From positions 40,244 to 104,243 of the forward strand of contig DWUU01000022.1 in the NCBI GenBank assembly GCA_019120575.1: a stretch of 64,000 nucleotides of DNA, read 5' to 3'. Numbering within the stretch: the stretch's first letter is position 1; each line of letters begins with the position of its first letter. The stretch comes from Candidatus Mediterraneibacter quadrami. GTDB taxonomy: Bacteria; Bacillota; Clostridia; Lachnospirales; Lachnospiraceae. This document shows positions 8,649 through 64,000 of the stretch, piece by piece. The notes under the pieces were generated by a model that was not told the DNA's origin, did no database searches, and saw only the letters and a program-made list of their open reading frames with translations. A program made the position numbers and the translations under genes.

Positions 8649-9686
8649 TTATCTAAACTGTTTCAGGAATCTCAAGTCCGCGCTGTGGAACAGCCGCACG
8701 TCATCCACGCCGTAGCGCATCATGACAAGTCTGTCCAGTCCGATATTTACATAGAATCCCGTATACTCGTCCGGATCCAGGCCTGCCGCCCTCAGTACAT
8801 TCGGGTGCGGCGAACCGCCCGGCATAACTTCGATCCAGCCCACGTGCTTGCATACGCTGCAGCCTTTGCCGCCGCACACCTGGCACTGCATGTCGATCTC
8901 AAATCCCGGCTCCACGAACGGGAAGAAACCGGAACGCATCCGCACCGGCACGTCCGTTCCGAACACCTTGCTGAGGATGCTCTTGATCAGGACTTTACCT
9001 GATGTAAATGTGATATCTTTGTCAACGATCAGCGCTTCATACTGGAAGAAGGCTCTCTCGTGATGGGCGTCGGTCGTCTCATTTCTGTAAACGCGTCCCG
9101 GATACACGAAACGGTACGGCGGTTTGTGCGTCTGCATATAGCGCACGCTTCCGCCTGTCAGGTGCGGGCGCAGGCAGAGCTTCTCATTGGTGCTGCCGCT
9201 GTCATGTCCTTCCAGCCAGTAGGTGTCCATGCTCTCGCGGGCCGGATGGTTCGGCGGGAAGTTCAGTTTATCAAAGGCATACATTTCGCTCGTGATCTCA
9301 TCTTCCTCAAAGATCTCAAATCCCATCGAGCGGAATGCATCGTTCAGGTCATAGCACATCTGTGTGATCGGATGCAGGCCGCCGCCGGACGGCAGGAGTC
9401 CCGGAACGGAGCAGTCAAAATCCGCAGACACTTCCGAAGCCTTGAGCTTCAACTCCACCCGCTTCTCATCGATCCGTTCCTTCACTTCATTCTTAGCCTG
9501 ATTCAGAAGTTTTCCCATCTCAGGACGAAGAGCCACATCCAGCGTCGGGATCTCTTTCATCAGAAGGCTCAACGCCCCCTGCTTCCCGATATACGCGCTC
9601 TTCACATTCTGCAGCTCGTTCTCACTCGCCGCTTCAGAAACCTTGTTTTTTGCTTCTGATAAAATACCGTTGATTTTATCTTTCAT
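8649..9686 (-). CDS. pheS: phenylalanine--tRNA ligase alpha subunit
   Basis: Class II aaRS motifs HPARESMDTYWL, RVYRNETTDAHHERAFFQYEAL, GLDRLVMMRYGVDDVR. Confidence 0.97.
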   Translation of the reverse strand: MKDKINGILSEAKNKVSEAASENELQNVKSAYIGKQGALSLLMKEIPTLDVALRPEMGKLLNQAKNEVKERIDEKRVELKLKASEVSADFDCSVPGLLPSGGGLHPITQMCYDLNDAFRSMGFEIFEEDEITSEMYAFDKLNFPPNHPARESMDTYWLEGHDSGSTNEKLCLRPHLTGGSVRYMQTHKPPYRFVYPGRVYRNETTDAHHERAFFQYEALIVDKDITFTSGKVLIKSILSKVFGTDVPVRMRSGFFPFVEPGFEIDMQCQVCGGKGCSVCKHVGWIEVMPGGSPHPNVLRAAGLDPDEYTGFYVNIGLDRLVMMRYGVDDVRLFHSADLRFLKQFR

Positions 9687-49863: not shown

Positions 49864-51264
49864 TTAATTTTTTTCATTTTCTTCCCGCGCCGGAAAATAA
49901 AAGGCAAATTCGCTGCCCTTCCCGGCCTCGCTGGCCACCGACACATCGCCGCCGTGGGCATGCGCGATCCAACGCACCATGGAAAGCCCAAGCCCGGAAT
50001 GGCTGGTTTCCGTCCTGGAGCTGTCCGCCCGGTAGAACCGTTCCCATATACGGGTCAGGTCCTCCGCCGCGATCCCGACGCCGTGATCCTTCACCCGGCC
50101 GCGGACTTCGCCGTCCCGCTCCTCCAGGATCACTTCCACTTTGCCGCCGTCATGACTGTACCGCACGGCGTTGGACAGCAGATTGGACACCATGCGGATA
50201 TAAAGAGTCTCATCCGCATCCGCCTCCACGCCCGGGCTGATCCGGCTTTCGATCCGGATGCCGCGGCCCGCGCCGTCGGCCAGCATCTGCTGTTCTTCTA
50301 CGATCATTTCCGTCAGTTCGCTTAAGTCAAGCCGTTCCCGGTGGATGGGCTGCCGCCCCTGATCCGCCCTGGACAGAAAGAGGAGCTGACTGATCATATC
50401 CGACATGCCCGCCGCTTTGCGCCGGATCAGCGCAAGCTGGCTCCTCTGATCCTTCGTCAGGCTCTCATCCGAAAGCATGGCGTCGCACTGAGCCAGGATC
50501 ACGCTCACCGGTGTGCGCAGTTCATGGGATGCATCGGACGTAAACTGCTGCTCCCGCCGGAAGACCTCTTCCAGTTCTTCCAGCATCCCGTCAAACGTCT
50601 CCGCCAGCGCATAAAACTCATCCCTGTGAACAGGCGCCTTCCTGTTATCCGCGTCTGTCAGGCCGACCCTCCGGGACAGGTCCGCATCCGACCGTATCTC
50701 CTTCACCGTCCCCGTGATCCGGCGCACCGGCAGGAGCACCCGCCGGGTGAACCGGTAGCCGGTCAATGCCGTCGCCAGCACCATCAGCGGGAGAAGGATC
50801 AGCGCCAGGCGCACCGTCACCGCGAAGCTCTCCTCCGCATCCGTCACCGAAGTCACGCCTCGCACATACACCGTCAGATCATCCGCAAGCCGGCAGGACA
50901 TATCATACACATACCATTCCCTGCTGCCGTCCCGGATCGTCCGCATTTCCCCGTTCGAAAACTCCGGCTGCGCGCGGAACCCGTGGGGCAGCCGTCCATA
51001 GAGGAAATACATTTTCTCATCATACATGGACAGATAAACATCATGGGATACCGAGTAGAAATCCGAATCCAGCCGGACCTCATCCCCCCGAAGATCAATA
51101 TTCTCCACACTGTCCTGTACCCGCTGCGTAAGCCTCGACTGAACAGACGACAGCATTTCCCTGCTGCTCAATGAAAACAGGATCGCCAGCGCCGCACAGG
51201 TCAGCAGCGCCATAAAAAATGTATATAATAATGTCAGTTTAACTTTCAGTGACAGTTTCTTCAT
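49864..51264 (-). CDS. sensor histidine kinase
   Basis: SDASHELRTPVSVILAQCDAML H-box, NLLSNAVRYSHDGG, GLGLSMVRWIAHAHGG. Confidence 0.95.
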   Translation of the reverse strand: MKKLSLKVKLTLLYTFFMALLTCAALAILFSLSSREMLSSVQSRLTQRVQDSVENIDLRGDEVRLDSDFYSVSHDVYLSMYDEKMYFLYGRLPHGFRAQPEFSNGEMRTIRDGSREWYVYDMSCRLADDLTVYVRGVTSVTDAEESFAVTVRLALILLPLMVLATALTGYRFTRRVLLPVRRITGTVKEIRSDADLSRRVGLTDADNRKAPVHRDEFYALAETFDGMLEELEEVFRREQQFTSDASHELRTPVSVILAQCDAMLSDESLTKDQRSQLALIRRKAAGMSDMISQLLFLSRADQGRQPIHRERLDLSELTEMIVEEQQMLADGAGRGIRIESRISPGVEADADETLYIRMVSNLLSNAVRYSHDGGKVEVILEERDGEVRGRVKDHGVGIAAEDLTRIWERFYRADSSRTETSHSGLGLSMVRWIAHAHGGDVSVASEAGKGSEFAFYFPAREENEKN

Positions 51265-51938
51265 CTCTTCTCCGCTCTCAACACATAGCCCGCGCCGCGC
51301 ACCGTATGGATCAGCTTCTCATCGTATCCCTCGTCAATCTTCCTGCGCAGATACCGGATATAAACGTCAATCACATTGGAGCCGCCCGCGTAGTCGAAGT
51401 TCCACAGATGCTGCTCCAGCCGCTCCCTCGACAGGACGATCCCTTCATTCTGGACCATGTACCGCAGCAGCGCAAACTCCTTGCCCGACAGGCGGATCAT
51501 TTTCCCGCCGCGACTCACCTCCTGCGTATCCATGTGGACTTCCAGATCCCCCACCCGGTAACAGGTCTTCGGCGTCTCCGCCGGTTTGCGCAGCAGCACC
51601 CGGATCCGCGCCAGCAGCTCCTCGAAAGCAAAGGGCTTCACCAGATAGTCATTGGCCCCCGCATCCAGCCCGGCCACCCGGTCCCCGATGCTGTCCTTCG
51701 CCGTCAGCAGGATCACCGGCGTGGCGTCATTGCGCCGCCGCATCTTCCGCAGCACTGTCAGCCCGTCCGTCACAGGCATCATAATATCCAGCACCACCGC
51801 ATCATACTCCGCGCTCTCCAGATACTCCAGCGCCTCCTGCCCGTCGTAACAGGAATCCACACTGTAATGCTCCTCTTTAAGCCGCCCGGCAATGATCCGG
51901 TTCAGGTCCTTTTCATCCTCTGCGATCAGTATCCTCAT
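51261..51938 (-). CDS. OmpR-family response regulator
   Basis: MRILIAEDEKDLNRIIAGRL, VLDIMMPVTDG, VKPFAFEELLARI, VRGAGYVL; overlaps kinase by ATGA. Confidence 0.95.
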   Translation of the reverse strand: MRILIAEDEKDLNRIIAGRLKEEHYSVDSCYDGQEALEYLESAEYDAVVLDIMMPVTDGLTVLRKMRRRNDATPVILLTAKDSIGDRVAGLDAGANDYLVKPFAFEELLARIRVLLRKPAETPKTCYRVGDLEVHMDTQEVSRGGKMIRLSGKEFALLRYMVQNEGIVLSRERLEQHLWNFDYAGGSNVIDVYIRYLRRKIDEGYDEKLIHTVRGAGYVLRAEKR

Positions 51939-52092
51939 CTTTCATGCCCTCCATACCGTCAATCTGGTATCATTGTATCATCTTGACAAGCCCGAGTACA
52001 GATAATATGCTGAAAACAACAAATGAACCGTTCGGATATCCCCGACTGAAATATAAAGAAAGAGATGCACATTTTATGAGAGGAGGACACAT

Positions 52093-55000
52093 ATGAATAC
52101 ACTTCGATACCGGACACGGGCAGACTCTTCGCCCAACGGAAAGCCCCGCGTCTATTTCTGCTGTCACCCGGAAGATTTTTCCATTTACTTTGAACCTCTG
52201 TCCAGGGAGATCCTGGAACTCTGGGACTGTGCCATCTGGTACATGCTGGAATCCGGAGACATGCCGCTGGAAGACCAGGAAATGTTTACCGACAGCCTGC
52301 TGCAGATGCAACTGTTTGTCATCCCGGTTTCCGAAACATTTCTTTTTAAAGAAAGCAGCGCGCGGGTTCGTGAATTCCCGCTGGCCATAGAGCAGCACAT
52401 TCCCGTTCTCCCCATCCTGGTCGACAGCGGACTGGCGATGGATTTTAACCGGATCTGCGGAAACCTTCAGTTTCTGGACCGCACCTCCTCCGACCCGACG
52501 GAAATCCCGTATGCCGAAAAGCTGAAAAAATATCTGAAATCCGTCCTTGTGCCGGACGATCTCTCCCGTAAGATCCGGGCGGCTTTCGATGCCTACGTGT
52601 TTCTGAGCTACCGGAAAAAAGACCGGAAATACGCCCAGGAGCTGATGCGGCTGATTCATGAAAACGATTTCTGCCGGGACATTGCCATCTGGTATGACGA
52701 ATTTCTCACACCGGGCGAGAATTTCAACGACTCGATCCGGGAAGCGCTGGAAAAGAGCCGGCTTTTTGCACTGGCAGTAACGCCGAATCTGGTCAACGAA
52801 AAGAACTATGTCATGGACATCGAATACCCCCTGGCACTTCAGAGCGGAAAGAAGATCCTGCCCGCAGAGCTGTGCGCCACCGACCGGAAGCTTCTGGAAC
52901 AATGTTATGAAGACATCCCCCGCTGCGTAAGCGGCAGCGACAGGGCTTCTCTTTCGGATTCTCTGGTGGATGCATTCCGGGAGATCGCCGTCCGGGAAAA
53001 CCACAGTTCGCCGGAGCATCTTCTGTTCATCGGTCTTGCTTATTTAAACGGCATCGATGTGGAAGTGGATCATGCGCGCGGCCTCAGGCTCATCAAAGAA
53101 GCGGCCGAACAGGGGCTTGCAGCGGCCATGAAAAAGCTGGTTTCCATGTACCGCACCGGCGCAGGCGTCCCTCTGGATCAGGACAGCGCCGTTTTCTGGC
53201 AGAAAAAGCTCATCGCCCGGCTCGAAGAACAGTTCACGCAGACCGGCGGCGGATTTGAACCTCTGCTGAACAGCCTGCAGGATCTTGCAATCCTTTATTC
53301 CGAATGTCAGAACTATCCGATGGCAAACGAGGCCTGCCGGAAGCTGAAAGAAAAACTGGATGCGGCCGGAAACCGGCTGGAACCGGACGCCATGACGCAT
53401 TATATACTCTGGTACTACGACCGGCTGGGATCCGGTTATCAGGCCCAGGGACTCCTTACTGAGGCAAAAAAAGCCTTCCTGGAATACGAAAACACTGCCT
53501 TTTCATCCGCTCACAAAGACGCCCCGACGCTGAACGATCTCCGTCGTCAGATCATAAGCTGCGACCGGATGGGGCAGCTCCGCCTGACAGAAGGCAATCT
53601 GGCACAGGCCCTGCACTGCTTCCGGAAAGGCAAACAGCTCACGCTCCTTCTGGATCAGGCTCTAAACAGCGCAGATTCCCTTTCGCAGCGGTTTGTGATG
53701 GGAATCCAGTGTGCCAGAACGCTGCGCCAGCAGGAAAACCTGAGCGGCGCCTTGGAAGAATACGAAGAAGCGCTGGCTCTGGCCAGACGGCTGGCGGACG
53801 ACGGCTCTTCCAAAACCGCCAGACAGCTTTCCCTCTGTCTGCAGGATATAAGCCGCCTTTATTCTGATATGGGACAGTATCCGAAAGCTCTGGAATATGC
53901 GGAAAGCAGTTTCCGGACAGAACAGGAACTGACAGAAAAGGAACCTTCCGTATGCAATCTGCGAAATCTTTCCGTCATCTGCAATCTCTGCGGAGACATC
54001 CGGCTGAACGCCGGATCCGTCCTTTCTGTCCCGGATCAGGAAATCCTGGAATACTACCGGCGAAGCCTCGAGATCGACCGGCAGCTGGCAGACCGGACCG
54101 GTTCCATGCAGTCCTGGCTGGATCTTTCCCACTCCTGCGATCGCATCAGCCGATTCTTCGGGCTGAGCCGGAAACCGGAAAAAGAAAAGGATTTTCTTGC
54201 ACAGGCTGTAGAAGCTGCGGAACAGGCGGTGAGCATTTCCGGCGCGCCAGAAGCCAAACGAGCGCTTCTTTCCCATCTGCGCCGTTCTGCCCTTCTCGCT
54301 GCCGAAGACCAGGATACCGGCCTGGAGAAATATTACCAACAGAAATACTTTGATCTTGGCCGGCAGATCTATGAGGAGACGCAGTCTCCGGAAGACGCCC
54401 TTGTCCTCGCCTCTGAATATCACGATCTTAGCTCCCGGGCTGAGTTGGAGCAGGAATACCAGACTGCGCGGGAATACCAGGAAAAAAGTATCCGGATCCA
54501 CGAAGAGGCTTTTCAGGGAGATCATTCCTCCGCCAGATATCAGCGTATCCTCGCCAATGCTTACCGCAATATGGCAGAGCTCTGCCAGAATTGTAAAGAC
54601 ATTCCCGGAGAGCGTGAATATCTTGAAAAAGCGCTGAAGCTAGAAAATACGCTGTGCCAGAAGGAACCCCTCCGGGAAAAAACCTCCCTGGCAGCCTGCT
54701 GCAGATCACTTGGCGACAATTACTGCAAAGAAGGCGACTGGAATTCAGCGTGGGATTATTACCGGTATTATATCAAGCTTCATGAAACCCAAAAAGACGG
54801 ACAGTCCGAAGCCGATTTCTACAGCCAGGTTGCGGACACATGGGCACACTGCGCTTACCAGGCGCAGATCTGCGCTCCGCGCTCCCGCTACTGCAGCGCC
54901 TGCTATAATATGGCCAGGACCCTGTTCCGGCAGGAGTGCTGCATACGAAAACTCGCCTATGCGCAGGAAAAAGACAACATCGCCCTTTATGACAATCTTC

Positions 55001-55485
55001 TGCGCGTCTACCGGCATCTGGCGGAGCTTTGTCTGCTTCAGAAAGACCTTCCGCTGGCCAGATACTATGCAGAGTTCTGCTGCAAAATGGCGCGAAGGCT
55101 TACAGCGGCATTTCCGCACACGCCGGCATATCTGCACCATTCCCTTCCGGAATATGCCGGCATCTGCATCCGGCTCCTGATGCAGATCTTCTATGACCAG
55201 GGAAAACATTTTAAGGAGGAAGAGGACTATGAATATGCCGAAAAGGCATTCGAATCAGCCATCCATTACGGAGAAGTCTTTCTAGAATTGTTCCCTGACG
55301 ACCTGGACGGCCGAAACCGGCTGGCACTTCTGAACTACGCGTACGGAGATGTGCTGCCGGACGGTTACTACGCATACTATCTGGAGCAGGCACTCAGGCT
55401 CTGGGAACAGCTGGCGCAGGAATATCCGGAAGACGCCGAATATGCGCACAACATTCAGATATTGAAAAACATCCTGAAAGAATAA
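52093..55485 (+). CDS. tandem TIR-like domains fused to Sel1/TPR repeats
   Basis: TIR-like 1 about aa 18-115 (RVYFCCHPEDF..CAIWYMLESGDMPLEDQEMFTDSLLQMQLFVIPVSETFL..REFPLAIEQ); TIR 2 about aa 166-265 (DAYVFLSYRKKDRKYAQELMRLI..IAIWYDEFLTPGENFNDSIREALEKSRLFALAVTPNLV..IEYPLALQ); Sel1 motif then many TPR-like helices. Confidence 0.85.
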   Translation: MNTLRYRTRADSSPNGKPRVYFCCHPEDFSIYFEPLSREILELWDCAIWYMLESGDMPLEDQEMFTDSLLQMQLFVIPVSETFLFKESSARVREFPLAIEQHIPVLPILVDSGLAMDFNRICGNLQFLDRTSSDPTEIPYAEKLKKYLKSVLVPDDLSRKIRAAFDAYVFLSYRKKDRKYAQELMRLIHENDFCRDIAIWYDEFLTPGENFNDSIREALEKSRLFALAVTPNLVNEKNYVMDIEYPLALQSGKKILPAELCATDRKLLEQCYEDIPRCVSGSDRASLSDSLVDAFREIAVRENHSSPEHLLFIGLAYLNGIDVEVDHARGLRLIKEAAEQGLAAAMKKLVSMYRTGAGVPLDQDSAVFWQKKLIARLEEQFTQTGGGFEPLLNSLQDLAILYSECQNYPMANEACRKLKEKLDAAGNRLEPDAMTHYILWYYDRLGSGYQAQGLLTEAKKAFLEYENTAFSSAHKDAPTLNDLRRQIISCDRMGQLRLTEGNLAQALHCFRKGKQLTLLLDQALNSADSLSQRFVMGIQCARTLRQQENLSGALEEYEEALALARRLADDGSSKTARQLSLCLQDISRLYSDMGQYPKALEYAESSFRTEQELTEKEPSVCNLRNLSVICNLCGDIRLNAGSVLSVPDQEILEYYRRSLEIDRQLADRTGSMQSWLDLSHSCDRISRFFGLSRKPEKEKDFLAQAVEAAEQAVSISGAPEAKRALLSHLRRSALLAAEDQDTGLEKYYQQKYFDLGRQIYEETQSPEDALVLASEYHDLSSRAELEQEYQTAREYQEKSIRIHEEAFQGDHSSARYQRILANAYRNMAELCQNCKDIPGEREYLEKALKLENTLCQKEPLREKTSLAACCRSLGDNYCKEGDWNSAWDYYRYYIKLHETQKDGQSEADFYSQVADTWAHCAYQAQICAPRSRYCSACYNMARTLFRQECCIRKLAYAQEKDNIALYDNLLRVYRHLAELCLLQKDLPLARYYAEFCCKMARRLTAAFPHTPAYLHHSLPEYAGICIRLLMQIFYDQGKHFKEEEDYEYAEKAFESAIHYGEVFLELFPDDLDGRNRLALLNYAYGDVLPDGYYAYYLEQALRLWEQLAQEYPEDAEYAHNIQILKNILKE

Positions 55486-55560: not shown

Positions 55561-55606
55561 GGGCAGCGGAAGATCCACAGGATCCCGCTGCCCCGTCTCT
55601 TTTTTC
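55561..55606 (+). terminator. terminator downstream of the TIR-TPR gene
   Basis: GGGCAGCGG-AAGATCCACAGGATC-CCGCTGCCC followed by GTCTCTTTTTT. Confidence 0.85.
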
Positions 55607-55673: not shown

Positions 55674-57350
55674 TTACTCCACGCGATAGATCCGCAGTCC
55701 GATCTCATGGAACAGCGGAAGAATATTTCCAATCGCATCGCGGTCAAGCTGGCGGATATCCTCCGGAAGTTCCTCATAGGGGACAAGATAGGGAGAAACT
55801 TTTCCAGCTGCATCCTTCTCCGGTCCGTACTTCCATCCATTGTCCCTGCGCTCGGCCATCCAGTTTTCATGCTCTTTCCGCGCAAGCGCCTCCGCCAGAT
55901 CCTCCGGGAATGACCGAACCTCCCGTGCCGCATCTCCGGTCCTGGCCGCATACATTCCTGCCGACTCCAGATATCCGAAATACGACCGCGCCTGACGGAT
56001 ATTGGAATATTTCAGATCGTCGCTTAAACGCTCCCAATCCGGATATGCCAGCGGACTGTCCGGATGTTCCGCTCTCCGGGCTTCGTTATAACGTTCATGG
56101 ATCCGTCTGGAAAGCTGCTCCACATTTTCCAGGAACGGACGGGGCAGCTGCTTCCCGTTGGCACGGATCTCCGACAGCAAAAGTTCCGAACGGGTCGTCG
56201 CCGAAACCCGGACGCCGCCCGGAAATACATCATCCAGTTTCAGAAGGCCGTGCAGTGTCCGTGTTTTCTTTTCGGAGAAATCCTCTGCAAGGATTCCCCT
56301 GCTGGTAATATAGTGAATCTGCAGAGCTCCGCCTTCCATTTCAATCCGGCTTGCCTCGGCGTGCGTTTTTTTACGGTCTGCGATCCCGTAAGCCTGCCGG
56401 TTCCATTCCTGAAGCTCATCGCACAGGATCAGAAGATATGCCAGCGGATGCAGGTACACAGACAACGGCGGAAGCGAAAACGGCGGTTTCTGCAGAACAT
56501 GCTTATAATAATTGTGCAAAAGGATCGCCGAAGCAGCATCCAGGATCGATTCTTCGTAGATCTTTCCGGAAACGGAAGATTTCTCCGCCATAAACCCGTA
56601 ATGCTGCATAAGCGCCAGCGCGCTGTAATAACCGTGATCTACATGTCCGCCCTGTTGCATATCCCCGATAAAGCCGGACAGTGTCTTCTCCAGAAGACCG
56701 GCCGGCACATGCAGTGTCTCCGCGATGTGGCCGCTGAGCATGGACACAAAATCCAGCGGCTGTTTTCCGACAGACAGAGTCGTCAGACAGGTTTCATCCT
56801 GATATCCGATATAGGGACCCGCGTCCCGTTCTCCGTCTTCCAGAACTGTCCGGATAAATTTATGCAGCTGACTGTTCGTAATCTCAACCGGATAACCGAT
56901 ATCATGGAACAGCGCCGCCATCCCCCAACGGAAAAAGAATTCCTCCTGCGTTCCGGAGAAATGCAGCGTCTGCTGTTTTTCCAGATACTGCTCTGCCGCA
57001 TCCCGGAAACCGGGACTGCTCTCCCAGATCTGTATTCCGAGGAGGAACACATTGACCGAATGTACATAATGATCTCTCTGTTTATCGATCAGAAGCGCGG
57101 CATTTTCCTCATACCCTCGCAGGATATCCAGAAGGTCCAGAAAATTATCATCTCCGCTCAGCATCTGTTTGTAACAGTCCAGAAATGTCTCATACACCTC
57201 TGATGCGGTCTGCTTTGTATCGTGCGCCGCAAACGCCTGCAGGGCCTCCTTCATGTAAATCCCGTAGCAGTGACTTCCGTCTCTGTCTGCCATCATCTGA
57301 AAAGACTGAAAAAAACGGTCGATCATTGTCCTTGTCTCCACATTCACCAC
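55674..57350 (-). CDS. HD-domain protein with C-terminal RyR-like domain
   Basis: HD motifs HYVHSVNVF, AALFHDIGYPVEI, HVDHGYYSALALM; C-terminal KEHENWMAERRDNGWKYGPEKDAAGKVSPYLVPYEELPEDIRQLDRDAIGNI resembles bacterial RyR domains. GTG start, or internal ATG at 57326. Confidence 0.8.
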   Translation of the reverse strand: MVNVETRTMIDRFFQSFQMMADRDGSHCYGIYMKEALQAFAAHDTKQTASEVYETFLDCYKQMLSGDDNFLDLLDILRGYEENAALLIDKQRDHYVHSVNVFLLGIQIWESSPGFRDAAEQYLEKQQTLHFSGTQEEFFFRWGMAALFHDIGYPVEITNSQLHKFIRTVLEDGERDAGPYIGYQDETCLTTLSVGKQPLDFVSMLSGHIAETLHVPAGLLEKTLSGFIGDMQQGGHVDHGYYSALALMQHYGFMAEKSSVSGKIYEESILDAASAILLHNYYKHVLQKPPFSLPPLSVYLHPLAYLLILCDELQEWNRQAYGIADRKKTHAEASRIEMEGGALQIHYITSRGILAEDFSEKKTRTLHGLLKLDDVFPGGVRVSATTRSELLLSEIRANGKQLPRPFLENVEQLSRRIHERYNEARRAEHPDSPLAYPDWERLSDDLKYSNIRQARSYFGYLESAGMYAARTGDAAREVRSFPEDLAEALARKEHENWMAERRDNGWKYGPEKDAAGKVSPYLVPYEELPEDIRQLDRDAIGNILPLFHEIGLRIYRVE

Positions 57351-57405: not shown

Positions 57406-58486
57406 GTTTAGAGATTATTCTCTGTCATATGCGTGGTGCTTTTGATTATTTGATGTATCCATATTATCCTGCCTATATGGGCTAATGTTATCATTTTGTT
57501 ATCGGCATTGATAACACTAACTCTGAAACTGCGGATAATGGCAATATGTTTCGTACTCAAATTATAAGCTATTTTGTTAAGAAAATCCACACCAAATAGC
57601 TACAAAATTGTCTCACTCTTTTTGCAATAGCCGTTTATATGATACATCCATTCCCAGAGCATCCAAAGGGGCTGTAATCAAAATGGAAAGGACAGCAACC
57701 GACAGGACAATTCATCCGACCTATTCTGTTTGATTTTCTGCTTTGAGCGGTTCGGTTATACCTTCACGCTCTGCCCTCTGCATTTACCATCCGGAAGAAC
57801 ATATCTTCGCCTGTATGTCAATATCGGCAAGGTAACTGTTCAAGCTACAGGATGTAAGCGATCAACACAGGTCAGACAGGCTATTTGGGCAGAAAATTTA
57901 CTGCCGAATGATATCATCTAAAAAATCAGTTATCTCTACGTTGTAAGCCGAGCCCTGGATAAAGGTAAACTTCTCCGTAATGATATTGCATTCCTCTAGA
58001 TATCCCTCAATTTCCAATTGGAGGTCCTCAATGAACTCGGTATCTTCAAAAGAAAGGCAGTCGCTTTTACTCATAAAAACACCCCGGAATGGTAAAGCAA
58101 CGGCATCCTCCAGCACCTGATACAGATCGGCCGTCATTCCATCATCCACTCCAACTATAATATACCAAAAATCCGCATGAGGCACAGTCCTCTCTTTCAA
58201 TTGGCACAAATGAGTTTCCCATACTGTAATCTGCACGTCTTTCCAAAGCAAAACACAGCCGTCCTCCGTGTGTGAAGCCCCGGGGAATCCAGCAAACCGC
58301 TCCAGCGTATGTATCAAAGTGGATTTTCCTACACCCTCTGCTCCCAAAAGACAGACAGAAACTGACCGGGCCACTGTTGGCTGTTCTGGTGCGGAATTTT
58401 CTGCAGCTTTTTCCTCAGAATTTCCATTAACCTTTGATTTCCTCTTAAACAAACTCATCTCTCATCGCTCCTTCTCTGAATTTTGA
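57406..58486. mobile_element. candidate small integrated segment between 22-bp direct repeats
   Basis: Flanked by perfect 22-bp repeats; right repeat begins downstream of guaA 3' end; no integrase found inside. Confidence 0.45.
57898..58458 (-). CDS. minimal EF-Tu-like GTPase-domain protein
   Basis: P-loop CLLGAEGVGKSTLIHTL; HADFWYIIVGVDDGMTADLYQVLEDAVALPFRGVFMSKSDCLSFEDTEFIEDLQLEIEGYLEE..FIQGSAYN parallels EF-Tu [44 protein letters not shown]..GSA. Confidence 0.7.
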   Translation of the reverse strand: MSLFKRKSKVNGNSEEKAAENSAPEQPTVARSVSVCLLGAEGVGKSTLIHTLERFAGFPGASHTEDGCVLLWKDVQITVWETHLCQLKERTVPHADFWYIIVGVDDGMTADLYQVLEDAVALPFRGVFMSKSDCLSFEDTEFIEDLQLEIEGYLEECNIITEKFTFIQGSAYNVEITDFLDDIIRQ

Positions 58487-58522: not shown

Positions 58523-59503
58523 TTATTCGAATTCGATCGTTCCCGTCGGCTTCGGCGTCAGGTCATAGCACACCCGGTTCACGCCCGGCACTTCTTTTGT
58601 GATCCGGTCTGTGATGTGCTGCAGCAGGGAGAACGGCACGTCCTCAACCGTTGCCGTCATCGCGTCTTTTGTATTCACCGCCCGCAGGATCACCGGCCAC
58701 TCAAAGGAGCGTTTACCGTCCTTCACGCCGACAGATTTGAAATCCGGGATCACGGTAAAATACTGCCATACTTTACCTTCCAGGCCGTTCTTCGCAAACT
58801 CCTCTCTCAGGATCGCGTCAGACTCACGCACCGCTTCCAGACGGTCTCGGGTGATCGCGCCCAGGCATCTCACGCCAAGTCCCGGTCCCGGGAACGGCTG
58901 ACGGTAAACCATGCCGTCCGGAAGTCCCAGCGCCTTGCCCACAACACGCACCTCATCCTTGAAGAGCAGCTTCAACGGCTCAACCAGCTCGAACTGCAGG
59001 TCTTCCGGAAGTCCGCCAACATTGTGATGCGCTTTCACGCCGTCGCTTTCCAGAATATCCGGATAGATCGTGCCCTGTGCCAGGAACTCGATCCCCTCAA
59101 GTTTTCTCGCCTCTTCCTCGAATACGCGGATGAACTCCGCGCCGATGATCTTGCGCTTCTGCTCCGGCTCCTCCACGCCTTCCAGCTTGTCGAGGAAGCG
59201 GTCAATGGCATCCACATAGATCAGGTTGGCATCCATCTGATTGCGAAATACCTCAACCACCTGTTCCGGCTCGCCCTTGCGGAGCAGACCGTGGTTTACA
59301 TGCACGCACACCAGTTGCTTTCCGATGGCTCTGATCAGCAGCGCGGCAACAACGGAAGAATCCACGCCGCCGGACAGCGCCAGAAGCACCTTCTTATCCC
59401 CGACCTGCTCCTGGATCTCTTTTACCTGCTCTTCAATAAAAGCCTCTGCCAGTTCATTCGTTGTAATACGGACCATATCGTCCGGACGTTTGTTGTTATC
59501 CAT
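58523..59503 (-). CDS. guaA: GMP synthase ATP-PPase subunit (no GATase domain)
   Basis: KKVLLALSGGVDSSVVAALLIRAIG; HVNHGLLRKGE; RQPFPGPGLGVRCLG; VCYDLTPKPTGTIEFE. Confidence 0.92.
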   Translation of the reverse strand: MDNNKRPDDMVRITTNELAEAFIEEQVKEIQEQVGDKKVLLALSGGVDSSVVAALLIRAIGKQLVCVHVNHGLLRKGEPEQVVEVFRNQMDANLIYVDAIDRFLDKLEGVEEPEQKRKIIGAEFIRVFEEEARKLEGIEFLAQGTIYPDILESDGVKAHHNVGGLPEDLQFELVEPLKLLFKDEVRVVGKALGLPDGMVYRQPFPGPGLGVRCLGAITRDRLEAVRESDAILREEFAKNGLEGKVWQYFTVIPDFKSVGVKDGKRSFEWPVILRAVNTKDAMTATVEDVPFSLLQHITDRITKEVPGVNRVCYDLTPKPTGTIEFE

Positions 59504-59625: not shown

Positions 59626-60564
59626 CTATTGCAGCTTCAGACTGAGCTGTTCATATTCTCCGGTTGTTTCGGATTTATCCAGCACATAATAAACGCCTTT
59701 TAAAACCGGTTTCCCGGTTTTGTCGCCTCTGAGCGGATACGCCCCGCGCTGCAGGAAAAATCTGTTGCCCTGCGCCGTCGGTTTGTCCGTGCCATACTCC
59801 ACGACAAATAACGGCTTCCCGTTCTTCAGCGTCTGCTGCCCTGCATTGAACGTCCCGCCGTCCATAGCCGACTCAATCAGAAGCATCGCGTCAGACAATC
59901 CGATGATCGTGTTATTGCGCTTCATGGCATTTGAAGCATTCCATGTCAGATTCGGCGGAAACTGGGATACAAACAGATGATTCCCTTCATCGAGCAGTTC
60001 TTTTACTTCGCCCTTGATTCTGTTTTTCAGTATTCCTTCTACGATCACGAAAACCGTACTTCCGCCCGTCTGAAGCGCTGCCCTGTGGGCCGTAAGATCC
60101 ACGCCTTTCGCATACCCGCTGACCACCGTAACCCCGGCGGCCGCCAGCTGGCCGGCGGCACTGTCTGTTATCCTTATCCCGGACTCCGACACTTTTCTTG
60201 ATCCGGTAAAGCCGACGCATTTATTTTGCAGCAGACTGTAGTTCCCCCGATAGAAAAGCACCGCCGGGATATTGCCCTCACTCAGCTTCTTCAGCCCTTC
60301 CGGGAAGGCATCCTCTCCCATCCAGCACATATCAACGCCGTTCTGACAGAGCTGTTCCTCCAGGGCCAGCGCCGCGTCCCGGCACTCGTAAATATTCTGC
60401 GCCACATCCTGCCTGATCCCGAAAGATCTCATCAGATCCACGCTTTCACACACGTCGCTCAGCGGACAGGACGATGCGTCACTCATATGTTTTATGATTT
60501 TCTTCAGCGTCCCGTCCCCGGAACCTCTGGCCATAATAATCCTTAAAACATCTCTGTTGATCAT
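59626..60564 (-). CDS. DprA/Smf-like (SLOG fold) protein
   Basis: VGFTGSRKVSESGIRITDSAAGQLAAAGVTVVSGYAKGVDLTAHRAAL; MKRNNTIIGLSDAMLLIES. Confidence 0.88.
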   Translation of the reverse strand: MINRDVLRIIMARGSGDGTLKKIIKHMSDASSCPLSDVCESVDLMRSFGIRQDVAQNIYECRDAALALEEQLCQNGVDMCWMGEDAFPEGLKKLSEGNIPAVLFYRGNYSLLQNKCVGFTGSRKVSESGIRITDSAAGQLAAAGVTVVSGYAKGVDLTAHRAALQTGGSTVFVIVEGILKNRIKGEVKELLDEGNHLFVSQFPPNLTWNASNAMKRNNTIIGLSDAMLLIESAMDGGTFNAGQQTLKNGKPLFVVEYGTDKPTAQGNRFFLQRGAYPLRGDKTGKPVLKGVYYVLDKSETTGEYEQLSLKLQ

Positions 60565-61427
60565 ATATTGTCACTGTCCCTTAAAGATTTAACGCATACA
60601 ATGCCGAAAACGCATTTTACACCCAGCGATTTCAGATACCTTGCATATTCCCACATTGTTGTGCCGGACTGATACAGGTCGTCAACCACAATCACATTTT
60701 CTCCGAGCGGCTTCCCTTCAAGGGCAACGCCGTTGTCCTCATATATTTTGTTCCAGACTTCAATCCTTTCTGCTGCTGAAAGCTGTTTCATCTCCGGTTT
60801 GCTTACCCGCAGAACCGGTTCAACAAACGGAAGTTCCAGCTGGCCGGATATCTTTTCCGCCATTTTCCATGCAAATTTTTCTTTCCCGGACTCCGTGGCC
60901 GGCATCGGTGAAACGCACCAGCTCTCCCCGTTATCAACCGGTATGTACTTACAGCAGGCGGACATTCTGTTTCTTATGACATCACGGTATTTATTCCACT
61001 CGTCATCTGTCAGTTCAGCACTGTGATATTTCAGCCGGTACTCAGCCTCACCGGCTTCTGTCCTGTCTTCTCCGTAAACAATATTGAAATCCGAAGCGAT
61101 GCAGTAATCCAGCTCCCTGTCGAAATTCCCCCGTATATTTTTATTCAGGCCGATCCACAGGACATTATTGACCGCCTCTTCGCCCCATTTTAAAAATTTA
61201 TCCATGGCTTCCGGATTATACCTGTTTTCCGGAATCCAGAGGTTGCACATCCCCTCACGGGTTTTGCTCTGTTTCCACTTCGTCGGGCTGCAGGCCACAA
61301 TATCCGGGCAGAAATGACTGATAATACCGGTATATTTTTCATTTACGGATATGTTGTAATCCTGCTGTTCACGCTCATGAACAATTATCCAAAAATCGCT
61401 TCTTTTTCTTTCAAATCTGTAGTCCAT
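60561..61427 (-). CDS. phosphoribosyltransferase-fold protein (ComF-like PRPP motif) with extended N-terminus
   Basis: ENVIVVDDLYQSGTTMWEYARYLKSLGV PRPP loop; ATGA overlap with the dprA-like gene. Confidence 0.82.
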   Translation of the reverse strand: MDYRFERKRSDFWIIVHEREQQDYNISVNEKYTGIISHFCPDIVACSPTKWKQSKTREGMCNLWIPENRYNPEAMDKFLKWGEEAVNNVLWIGLNKNIRGNFDRELDYCIASDFNIVYGEDRTEAGEAEYRLKYHSAELTDDEWNKYRDVIRNRMSACCKYIPVDNGESWCVSPMPATESGKEKFAWKMAEKISGQLELPFVEPVLRVSKPEMKQLSAAERIEVWNKIYEDNGVALEGKPLGENVIVVDDLYQSGTTMWEYARYLKSLGVKCVFGIVCVKSLRDSDNI

Positions 61428-61443
61428 ATCCTGTCTCCTTTTT

Positions 61444-61472
61444 TGAAACTATTATAACTGAAACTATTATAA
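61444..61472 (-). promoter_or_regulatory. tandem 14-bp repeat containing two TATAAT boxes
   Basis: TGAAACTATTATAA at 61444-61457 and 61459-61472 (period 15); minus strand TTGCCC-17-TATAAT. Confidence 0.6.
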
Positions 61473-61557
61473 TCCAAATAGAAAGTGCGGGCAACCGCCT
61501 GCTGCAGTTCCCGCACAATTGTTTTCTCCTGTAATGCACCCTTATGCCCTGACGCTT

Positions 61558-61630
61558 ACTGCTCCTGATGCACCACAACCTGCGGGAACGGGATCTCGAT
61601 TCCGTTCCGGTCCAGCCGCTGCCCGGCGCT
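61558..61630 (-). pseudogene. C-terminal remnant of an MscS-family channel gene
   Basis: Reverse-strand frame reads GQRLDRNGIEIPFPQVVVHQEQ* like the MscS C-terminus; no upstream channel domain. Confidence 0.6.
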
Positions 61631-61874
61631 ACGAGCTGCTCGCCCGCTTCCGGCGGAATATGGTATTCAAACTCTTTCATCATTATCTCTCTTTTTAATG
61701 TAGCCGGAGAATTATAGCACTCCGGTGAAGAGGGTTCAATAATTTTACCGGAAAACAGAGCAATTTTACACGTACTGCATTTCTTGACAGAGGCATCGGT
61801 AAAATATACACTTATTTCAGATCCGTTTCCGATGCGGGACGTACATTGAATAACCAAAGGAGATATCGACCGAA

Positions 61875-62336
61875 ATGACTCTTGCGGCCCTGAGAGATTA
61901 TTTAAAGAAAGCAAAGGAAAAATATCCTGTATCAACAGAATTTATAAAGAAATATCAGCAATCCCCGGCAAATAAAAACGGATATGTCTACTATGCCTGG
62001 GAATGCGGTCTGACCGTGTGCAAACAGACTGCCGACCCAAACCAGAAGTGGCATTTTCTCGAAGCGTACACCGGATTATTGTTAGCTGATCCTTCTAATA
62101 ATATTACCCCGTCAACGGACGCCCGGATCATTTATAACCGCATCCGCTGCCCGGAACTGCTGCTGTGGCTGGCTGAAGCGGCCGGGATCAGTCCGGAAAA
62201 GGTGCAGGAATGCGCTGACGCGGCACAGGAAATTATCAAAACCTCAGCCGGCAGCCGCTCAAGAAATGCTGCAGGGAACAAAATCCGGGAAATGATTCCG
62301 TGGGAGGAGATTGAAAAGGCAATTGACTTATTGTAA
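61875..62336 (+). CDS. hypothetical protein
   Basis: 153-aa ORF with AAAGGAG upstream; MTLAALRDYLKKAKEKYPVSTEF. Confidence 0.6.
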   Translation: MTLAALRDYLKKAKEKYPVSTEFIKKYQQSPANKNGYVYYAWECGLTVCKQTADPNQKWHFLEAYTGLLLADPSNNITPSTDARIIYNRIRCPELLLWLAEAAGISPEKVQECADAAQEIIKTSAGSRSRNAAGNKIREMIPWEEIEKAIDLL

Positions 62337-62750
62337 GCATCGTAGAGTATAACGTTTCCCTGCTCAACTGTCCCAAATTAATGATGAACAATGCAGACTT
62401 CGATCAAAAGTTTCACATCAGAATGTCCATTTGTATCCTTCAAACCATAACGATTACACAAAGCGTGCAGTGCTTCTTGCTTGCGTAAATGATATCAATA
62501 AATGTAGAAAATTAACGACTTTAATCATTATTCACGTAGGTATCTGCTTATGATTATCCATATTAAATCTGAAATAATCAAACTGACTTTTACGCAATTC
62601 ATTATATACTTTAGAAATAATCGTCATTTTCCTCTGCAGCTACTTTCGCAGACATATATTCCACCTATTTCTCAAGTTTCTCATTTAACCATTGTTGCTC
62701 AAAACAGTTAGGGAATTATTTCATCTGACTTTTCAAAAACCTTTTTCGTA

Positions 62751-63452
62751 TTACTCAATAATTATGTTTCGATCACGTATCATCTGATTTAACATACTTC
62801 TTTCATCATTCATATATTTATATGGTTCTGTTGCCTTAAAGTATAATCCATATATTGTAAGCAGACAATTATACTTCAATCCTGAATGTGCGAAATATTT
62901 CATGCTAGGTCTATTCATAGAATATATTAGCTCTTTATCAAATTTTTTATACCATTTATGTATTCCTTCATACAGTGGAACACTAACCCAGCGTAATTCT
63001 TCATCCGAGAGTCCAGCTCTCTTACACTTTAAACCGAAATCTATTAAAAAATTTCTAATATACACTAAATAAATCACAGATGTATGTCTCAAACAATATC
63101 CCACTTCTCCATGTAAATCATTTAATATACATGAGATTTTACTAAGAGCTTCATAAGAATAGCAACAAGTTGGTGTATATATGTTTTTACCAATATTTTC
63201 AGGAATTAATGATTTTTCATCCTCAGTAATACTTAGATTTTCATATTGCGCTAGTATCCCAATCTCTTTCCTTATTTTTGTTATTCCCTCATACTTTTTT
63301 CGAGAAAGTTCACTCGTAATTTTCAATTTTTCTGTATAGCGTAATTTAAAATTACCTAAGAAGTGAGTTAATAAAGTAGTAAATAAAGCAACAACAAATG
63401 ATATAGTTGCTGTTACAATTTTACTTTGATATGTAATAAGAAAATCTTGCAT
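62751..63452 (-). CDS. hypothetical protein with one N-terminal TM segment
   Basis: MQDFLITYQSKIVTATISFVVALFTTLLTHFLGN TM; AT-rich. Confidence 0.65.
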   Translation of the reverse strand: MQDFLITYQSKIVTATISFVVALFTTLLTHFLGNFKLRYTEKLKITSELSRKKYEGITKIRKEIGILAQYENLSITEDEKSLIPENIGKNIYTPTCCYSYEALSKISCILNDLHGEVGYCLRHTSVIYLVYIRNFLIDFGLKCKRAGLSDEELRWVSVPLYEGIHKWYKKFDKELIYSMNRPSMKYFAHSGLKYNCLLTIYGLYFKATEPYKYMNDERSMLNQMIRDRNIIIE

Positions 63453-63725
63453 GGTAAATATTTCTCCTCATTCAGATATACGATTACTCCCTAACACCAT
63501 GTACAATATATAAAATTCACACTGCACCTTAAGAGTCGGAAAATACACTGTTTATACAACTTTCCGACCCTCTGTCTACTATTCCAGATCCTCAGCTAAT
63601 AACTTGAACCACCTGATTTTCTATGGTTTTTGATGATTTTATTTTTCGTATTGTTTATAACTTCTTTTCGTATTTGTACCGGATTAATTTTAAATCCAAA
63701 CCAGACCAACCCGAAATACTATCTG

Positions 63726-64000
63726 CTATTTTAAATAATTTCCTTCGTATGGTCTCTTCATCATATTTTTTACCATATCACATATAATATTTGAATCTAA
63801 TTTAACATTATCAATATTTTGAAGATAATAACCAATGTTTTCTTCTGTAATACAAGTAGCTCTCTTGCTCAGTCCCATACATGCAATAAAAATTCCTTCA
63901 TTAGTACAATCATATATGTCTTTATCATTTTTCTTATCATATGTCATATCAAAAGCATTTAAAAACTTAGTAAACGTAGCATCTCCTAAAAATGTATTTA
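63726..64000 (-). CDS. hypothetical protein, 5' end beyond window
   Basis: Open frame continues upstream of the listed Met (NTFLGDATFTKFLNAFDMTYDKKNDKDIYDC) to the window edge. Confidence 0.5.
   Translation of the reverse strand, partial: NTFLGDATFTKFLNAFDMTYDKKNDKDIYDCTNEGIFIACMGLSKRATCITEENIGYYLQNIDNVKLDSNIICDMVKNMMKRPYEGNYLK

Follow-up and report, generated by a model that had tools for sequence, protein, structure and literature searches.

Thoeris consists of a ThsB TIR protein together with a ThsA effector of the SIR2-SLOG or macro-TM type. In animals, how the ryanodine receptor (RyR) relates to cyclic ADP-ribose is a long-standing matter of debate. The Repeat12 (R12) domain of RyR3 binds adenine nucleotides, which stack on Trp880 (PMC12627627). 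According to a 2026 preprint, RyR proteins of phages use H75, W78, H100, and D117 to bind or cleave 2'cADPR/3'cADPR, most of the tested phage homologues bind without cleaving, and RyDEP is a phage glycosidase of RyR fold with a catalytic His and Asp (PMC13232231). TIR or TIR-like modules are also found ahead of TPR repeats in bacteria, both in the TIR-STAND-TPR and TIR-Sel1/TPR proteins and in the Swarozyc/DUF4062 NADases, and the paper on the latter does not mention RyR partners (PMC13174449).

The window analysed here, a stretch of 64,000 nucleotides, carries a double-TIR gene next to an RyR gene. It is like Thoeris in that a TIR protein adjoins a separate protein with a putative domain for an ADP-ribose-type ligand and an effector module. 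However, the putative receptor domain is RyR and not SLOG or macro, the effector is HD or, in relatives, TM-Rossmann, and the TIR protein has two TIR modules followed by Sel1/TPR repeats and only weak similarity to ThsB in PADLOC (E 1.7e-4). No ThsA-type effector (SIR2-SLOG or macro-TM) was found by Pfam and PADLOC beside the TIR gene, where the neighbour is instead an HD-RyR gene, and because the defining effector is absent we do not claim membership of Thoeris. The RyR domain shares the PF02026 fold and, apart from a Ser in place of the second His, the residues of the His-Trp-(His)-Asp pocket with the RyDEP anti-Thoeris proteins (PMC13232231), but those serve phage counter-defence, whereas the domain in the window is bacterial, fused to HD, and paired with a TIR gene. 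With animal Repeat12 it has in common the tandem two-repeat fold and the Trp that stacks on adenine (PMC12627627), but it lies outside any calcium channel, and in relatives RyR ends a TM-Rossmann protein. The Swarozyc/DUF4062 proteins resemble the window protein in joining a TIR-like domain to TPRs but belong to another TIR-like family, and the TIR-STAND-TPR proteins differ in that the window protein has two TIR modules and, by Pfam, no STAND NTPase between TIR and TPR. In the searched parts of the RyDEP preprint we found no discussion of bacterial RyR genes beside TIR genes (PMC13232231), and our literature search, whose reach did not extend to a recent TIR-system preprint, gave no paper that connects bacterial RyR partners with Thoeris or TIR. 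The novelty of the TIR-RyR pairing is therefore provisional.

The double-TIR protein and its family

The TIR gene and its signals are arranged as follows (AF2, AlphaFold2).

51983–52011, plus strand: sigma-70-like promoter of the TIR gene, TTGACA-17-TATGCT (consensus scan, 10/12 matches; a consensus match only)
52081–52086, plus strand: AGGAGG ribosome-binding site, 6 bases 5' of the ATG (sequence inspection)
52093–55485, plus strand: TIR-TIR-Sel1-TPR protein, 1130 aa (ORF; Pfam; family in Clostridia)
52135–52557, plus strand: module 1, aa 15–155, degenerate TIR (AF2 fold; hhalign; residue counts)
52564–52992, plus strand: module 2, aa 158–300, canonical TIR (Pfam TIR_2; AF2; Foldseek; residue counts)
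52999–53247, plus strand: Sel1 repeats, aa 303–385 (weak Pfam Sel1; Sel1 proteins in the PDB, E 9e-20; AF2 helices)
53248–55482, plus strand: TPR array, aa 386–1130, presumed sensor (Pfam TPR_12/TPR_10; identities)
55561–55606, plus strand: GC-rich stem plus T run resembling a terminator, between the convergent TIR and HD-RyR genes (sequence inspection; unlisted by the automatic scan, probably owing to a bulge in the stem)

Pfam analysis of the 1130-aa protein indicated TIR_2 at aa 169–258 (E 2.8e-11, 44.4 bits, cut-off 28), TPR_12/TPR_10, and weak Sel1, and it did not find TIR_2 in module 1. The motifs of module 2 are FLSYRKKDR, IAIWYDEFLTPGE, and NYVM..E244YP.A. A preliminary description had proposed an internal TIR duplication from paired motifs, and these pairs (CAIWY/IAIWYDEF and REFPLA/IEYPLA) are indeed present. 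The duplication itself was borne out at the level of profiles and of the structure prediction it had called for. For each module a family profile was made from 28 relatives, and the two profiles matched each other (hhalign probability 98.2, E 3.7e-14). The AlphaFold2 model (pLDDT 89.8, pTM 0.86, from a 26-sequence family alignment) showed two successive beta-alpha modules with identical element order, followed by Sel1-type helices. The strands were placed at 19, 47, 74, and 105 in module 1 and at 167, 197, 224, and 254 in module 2. The matches returned by Foldseek were TIR domains, namely MyD88 (TMt 0.67), SARM1, TLR10, IL-1RAcP, TIR-SAVED, and SPARTA. In the distant relative G080, module 1 itself was weakly matched by TIR_2 (E 2.5e-4, below cut-off). 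Judged by model and profile, module 1 is thus a TIR domain despite the missing Pfam match.

The same description had called the first copy degenerate and the second near-canonical, and residue counts agree with this. E244 of module 2, the position of the catalytic glutamate of NADase TIRs, was Glu in 26 of 26 relatives, whereas the equivalent position of module 1, E94, was E in 10, D in 10, V in 3, and I in 3 relatives. This position is thus not conserved in the manner of a catalytic one, though the window protein keeps the Glu there. The Sel1/TPR repeats noted behind the TIR modules were recovered by Pfam and as AlphaFold2 helices.

In Oscillospiraceae, Lachnospiraceae, and other Clostridia, the architecture recurs with 25–73% identity over the N-terminal region and up to three copies of the double-TIR gene per genome. 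Its distribution is patchy, since about 10 of 391 Clostridia genomes (species sampled) were matched, two of them only partially. The double-TIR TPR form had been called unusual, a judgement to be qualified, since it recurs, if patchily, across many families of Clostridia. No match was found when the TIR N-terminus was used as query against plasmids and phages. Between the window protein and its four nearest relatives, the TIR modules were 62–78% identical and the TPR array was 33–41% identical, a contrast in sequence conservation that would fit an enzyme that stays constant and a sensor that changes.

The HD-RyR gene and RyR genes at related loci

Of all features at this locus, the HD-RyR gene at 55674–57350, which was absent from the preliminary description, is the most informative. 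It is convergent with the TIR gene and is the next gene, but the two do not share an operon in the window.

55674–57350, minus strand: HD-RyR partner protein, 558 aa, or 550 aa with the ATG at 57326 as start (Pfam RyR; RyR gene content; relatives' loci)
56367–57104, minus strand: probable HD phosphohydrolase domain (alignments; weak Pfam HD)
55677–56279, minus strand: Repeat12-like tandem RyR domain of about 200 aa (Foldseek; profile search; residue spacing)

Pfam RyR (PF02026) was found in the partner at E 1.3e-15 (57.9 bits, cut-off 27.4), a profile search with the RyR domain gave E 1e-33, and the C-terminal 200 aa modelled as a tandem R12 fold, for which Foldseek returned R12 of human RyR3 and Bt-RyR. 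In the second RyR repeat, H486 is followed by W489 (+3), a Ser (+25), and D528 (+42), so that it reads H-W-S-D. Ser takes the place of the second His, but most ligand residues are kept, and the His, Trp, and Asp have the spacing of H75, W78, and D117 in the phage proteins. The standalone RyR protein of locus L011 has H, W, H, and D at a spacing identical to that of HD-RyR, and 12 of 12 membrane-type RyR proteins keep H-W-H-D, some of them with insertions of a few residues. In the HD part, the putative metal ligands H86, H141-D142, H231, H271, and D303 were invariant in alignments of 9 homologues. Pfam HD fell short of its cut-off (E 0.011, 16.5 bits against 22), a weak Pfam HD was seen in 6 of 9 members, and a profile search for a solved (PDB) homologue of the HD part returned none. 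The partner is thus probably an HD phosphohydrolase ending in a tandem RyR domain, as judged from these alignments and profiles. When HD-RyR was searched against plasmids, only the RyR domain was matched, on two plasmids; phage records gave one long weak match (MT836912.1, 26%) and short RyR matches, and viral contigs gave no match.

Recurrent neighbours were found by all-against-all comparison of the genes around the double-TIR family. The genome of the window has one RyR gene and one double-TIR gene, and they are neighbours. HD-RyR proteins are present at double-TIR loci in the window, L057, L002, L004, L012, and L059. The second recurrent neighbour is a protein of about 475 aa with an N-terminal hydrophobic (TM) segment, a Rossmann-like GFGxLG motif, and a C-terminal RyR domain, which is present in L057, L002, L003, L004, L012, and L156; in L156 its gene lies 16 bases upstream of the double-TIR gene. 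This TM-Rossmann-RyR protein of close relatives was not found in the window's genome, which is 94% complete. Altogether, RyR genes adjoin double-TIR genes in L002, L003, L004, L012, L059, L061, L011, L072, and L156, and those beside the family members in L061 and L011 are small free-standing RyR genes. In the nearest relative, L057, only the TIR gene (73% in the N-terminal region) and the HD-RyR gene (74%) are common with the window, while the flanks differ, so the two genes travel together as one unit. About 18 of the 29 loci with a double-TIR gene lack an RyR neighbour, several of them adjoining housekeeping genes, so RyR is no obligate partner of the family.

Other candidates for the cassette were set aside. 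The two-component system upstream (49864–51938) and the downstream GTPase, GuaA-like, and DprA genes showed no recurrence at the TIR loci of relatives in the all-against-all comparison. A channel label for the TM-Rossmann-RyR family was also dropped: a classical K+ channel signature was sought, Pfam consistently gave RyR only, and TrkA_N was supported only by a separate Arcobacter gene that is not in this family. At L072, a truncated double-TIR gene with module 1 only (8690–9559) adjoins the RyR gene, possibly as a decayed cassette.

RyR-TIR adjacency beyond the double-TIR family

The generality of the adjacency was assessed by RyR (PF02026) searches that were not seeded on TIR, in 391 Clostridia genomes and in 397 genomes of the window's family, and TIR_2 was then located in the RyR-positive genomes. 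RyR was found in 27 of the 391 and in 56 of the 397 genomes. It lay less than 3 kb from TIR_2 in 10 of 27 Clostridia genomes (expected 0.14, Poisson p 7e-16) and in 19 of 56 family-level genomes (expected 0.23, Poisson p 6e-30), where the p-values are indicative because a few genomes occur in both samples and the genomes are related and not phylogenetically independent. Most RyR-TIR pairs are 40–700 bases apart on one strand. Genes for type I restriction specificity subunits are typical of defence islands, and as a control this gene (Methylase_S) was found beside RyR in 0 of 60 genomes, compared with 20 of 60 for TIR. The pairing of TIR with RyR is thus strongly non-random. At the genome level, the double-TIR gene and RyR co-occurred in 5 of 10 cases (p 2e-4, or 1.6e-3 without the window's own genome).

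The TIR partners of RyR are diverse and include TIR-LRR (L109, L110, and L112), another single-TIR protein (L113), and a TIR-STAND-TPR protein whose gene adjoins the RyR gene (L151). In L112 and L113, HD-RyR is likewise paired with single-TIR proteins, which are unrelated. In L166 (5558–7261), an HD-RyR gene lies close to a free-standing RyR gene; the genome (G050) has no TIR_2 match. On an Arcobacter plasmid (L170, CP146529.1, 4712–8435), a three-gene run of TrkA_N, RyR, and DUF4062-TPR shows the logic of a TIR-like protein plus RyR in another phylum, with the DUF4062-TPR gene directly following the other two genes. On a Priestia plasmid (L172, NZ_CP128553.1), an RyR gene stands directly after a gene with an adenylate/guanylate cyclase domain and near a gene annotated as a Pycsar effector, and a gene with a TIR domain follows about 1.4 kb downstream. 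RyR is also fused to AAA or MoxR-type ATPases (L114, 7580–8854; L171, 3760–6492), where no TIR neighbour was seen. RyR homologues are present in 267 phage records across many groups (Salmonella, Pseudomonas, Aeromonas, and Arthrobacter phages), and this spread is in line with a counter-defence role.

Proposed circuit and alternative explanations

These results suggest that the RyR domain reads a small molecule made by the TIR protein in a bacterial immune circuit, and we consider it fairly probable that the pair is a Thoeris-like immune signalling cassette in which a TIR-made ADP-ribose signal is received by RyR domains. In such a circuit, the TPR array of the 1130-aa protein would sense infection or another trigger, and assembly would switch on the second TIR module, while the first, a catalytically unreliable copy, would play a structural or regulatory part. 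From NAD+, the active TIR would make an ADP-ribose-type signal, which the tandem RyR domain of HD-RyR may bind and so gate the HD domain, itself probably a hydrolase of a nucleotide. In many relatives, the role of receptor would fall to the membrane-anchored Rossmann-RyR protein, either by itself or as a further one. The analysis itself establishes the domain anatomy, its conservation, and the gene pairing, and from these the circuit predicts cleavage of NAD+, an ADP-ribose-type signal, its recognition by RyR, an active HD domain, and a role in phage defence; an immune role is contradicted by no result and proven by none. The wider reading is more tentative and may well prove wrong: RyR would serve bacteria widely as a receptor for the ADP-ribose signals that TIRs make, TIR-RyR pairs would form a new immune class with HD or membrane effectors that contains relatives of the animal Repeat12 pocket, and phages would steal the signal with RyR proteins of their own. 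If true, this would add to TIR immunity a receptor domain absent from those described in the literature covered, would account for phages that carry cADPR-capturing RyR-domain proteins, and would connect the animal receptor's nucleotide pocket with bacterial immunity.

The preliminary description had placed the protein among NAD+-depleting antiphage and signalling systems. Depletion of NAD+ is possible but is not the best-supported role, and we favour signalling over a lone NADase because RyR-domain partners recur. TIR NADases that act alone are well established, and the TIR-TPR protein could likewise be a self-contained NADase of abortive infection, with the RyR gene as a separate defence or counter-defence gene sharing the island; the many relatives without an RyR neighbour and the nearby DprA/phosphoribosyltransferase pair, which resembles PsyrTA/ShosTA, would fit this. 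However, sharing of an island does not agree with the enrichment of TIR beside RyR when a typical defence-island gene is not enriched there, with the operon-like spacing of most RyR-TIR pairs, or with the occurrence of the same pair in a different neighbourhood in L057, and we regard this explanation as quite improbable. HD-RyR could instead be an off-switch that captures and degrades the TIR signal as RyDEP does and guards against leaky activation, while the TIR-TPR protein kills by NAD+ depletion. HD-RyR keeps both residues corresponding to the catalytic His and Asp of RyDEP (H486 and D528; PMC13232231), the HD hydrolase could add a second degrading activity, and the double-TIR genes that lack an RyR neighbour would encode NADases acting alone. 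But the commonest RyR partner, with its N-terminal TM segment and Rossmann motif, resembles a membrane effector more than a degrader, and most of the phage homologues tested in that preprint bind without cleaving, so that an off-switch seems unlikely, if less so than the self-contained NADase.

A housekeeping signalling or NAD-metabolic protein without any immune function would agree with the lack of a PADLOC system match, but we consider this highly improbable in view of the patchy distribution (10 of 391 genomes), the fast divergence of the TPRs behind conserved TIR modules, the movement as a cassette, and the RyR homologues in phages.

Several further features of the window were recorded downstream of the TIR-RyR cassette. 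At 57898–58458 (minus strand) lies a gene for a 186-aa small P-loop (GTPase-like) protein of no clear family, with a GC content of 0.44, and at 58523–59503 (minus strand) a gene for a 326-aa GMP synthase with the ATP-pyrophosphatase and C-terminal domains and without the glutamine amidotransferase half. A DprA-like gene (PADLOC PsyrA E 1e-52, ShosA 2e-40) and the phosphoribosyltransferase gene that follows and overlaps it (PsyrT E 1e-8) occupy 59626–61427 (minus strand), 2 kb from the cassette, and are the pair that resembles a PsyrTA/ShosTA-type toxin-antitoxin or defence system. From 61430 to 64000, GC drops to 0.36 compared with 0.53 for the window, which suggests recently acquired DNA.
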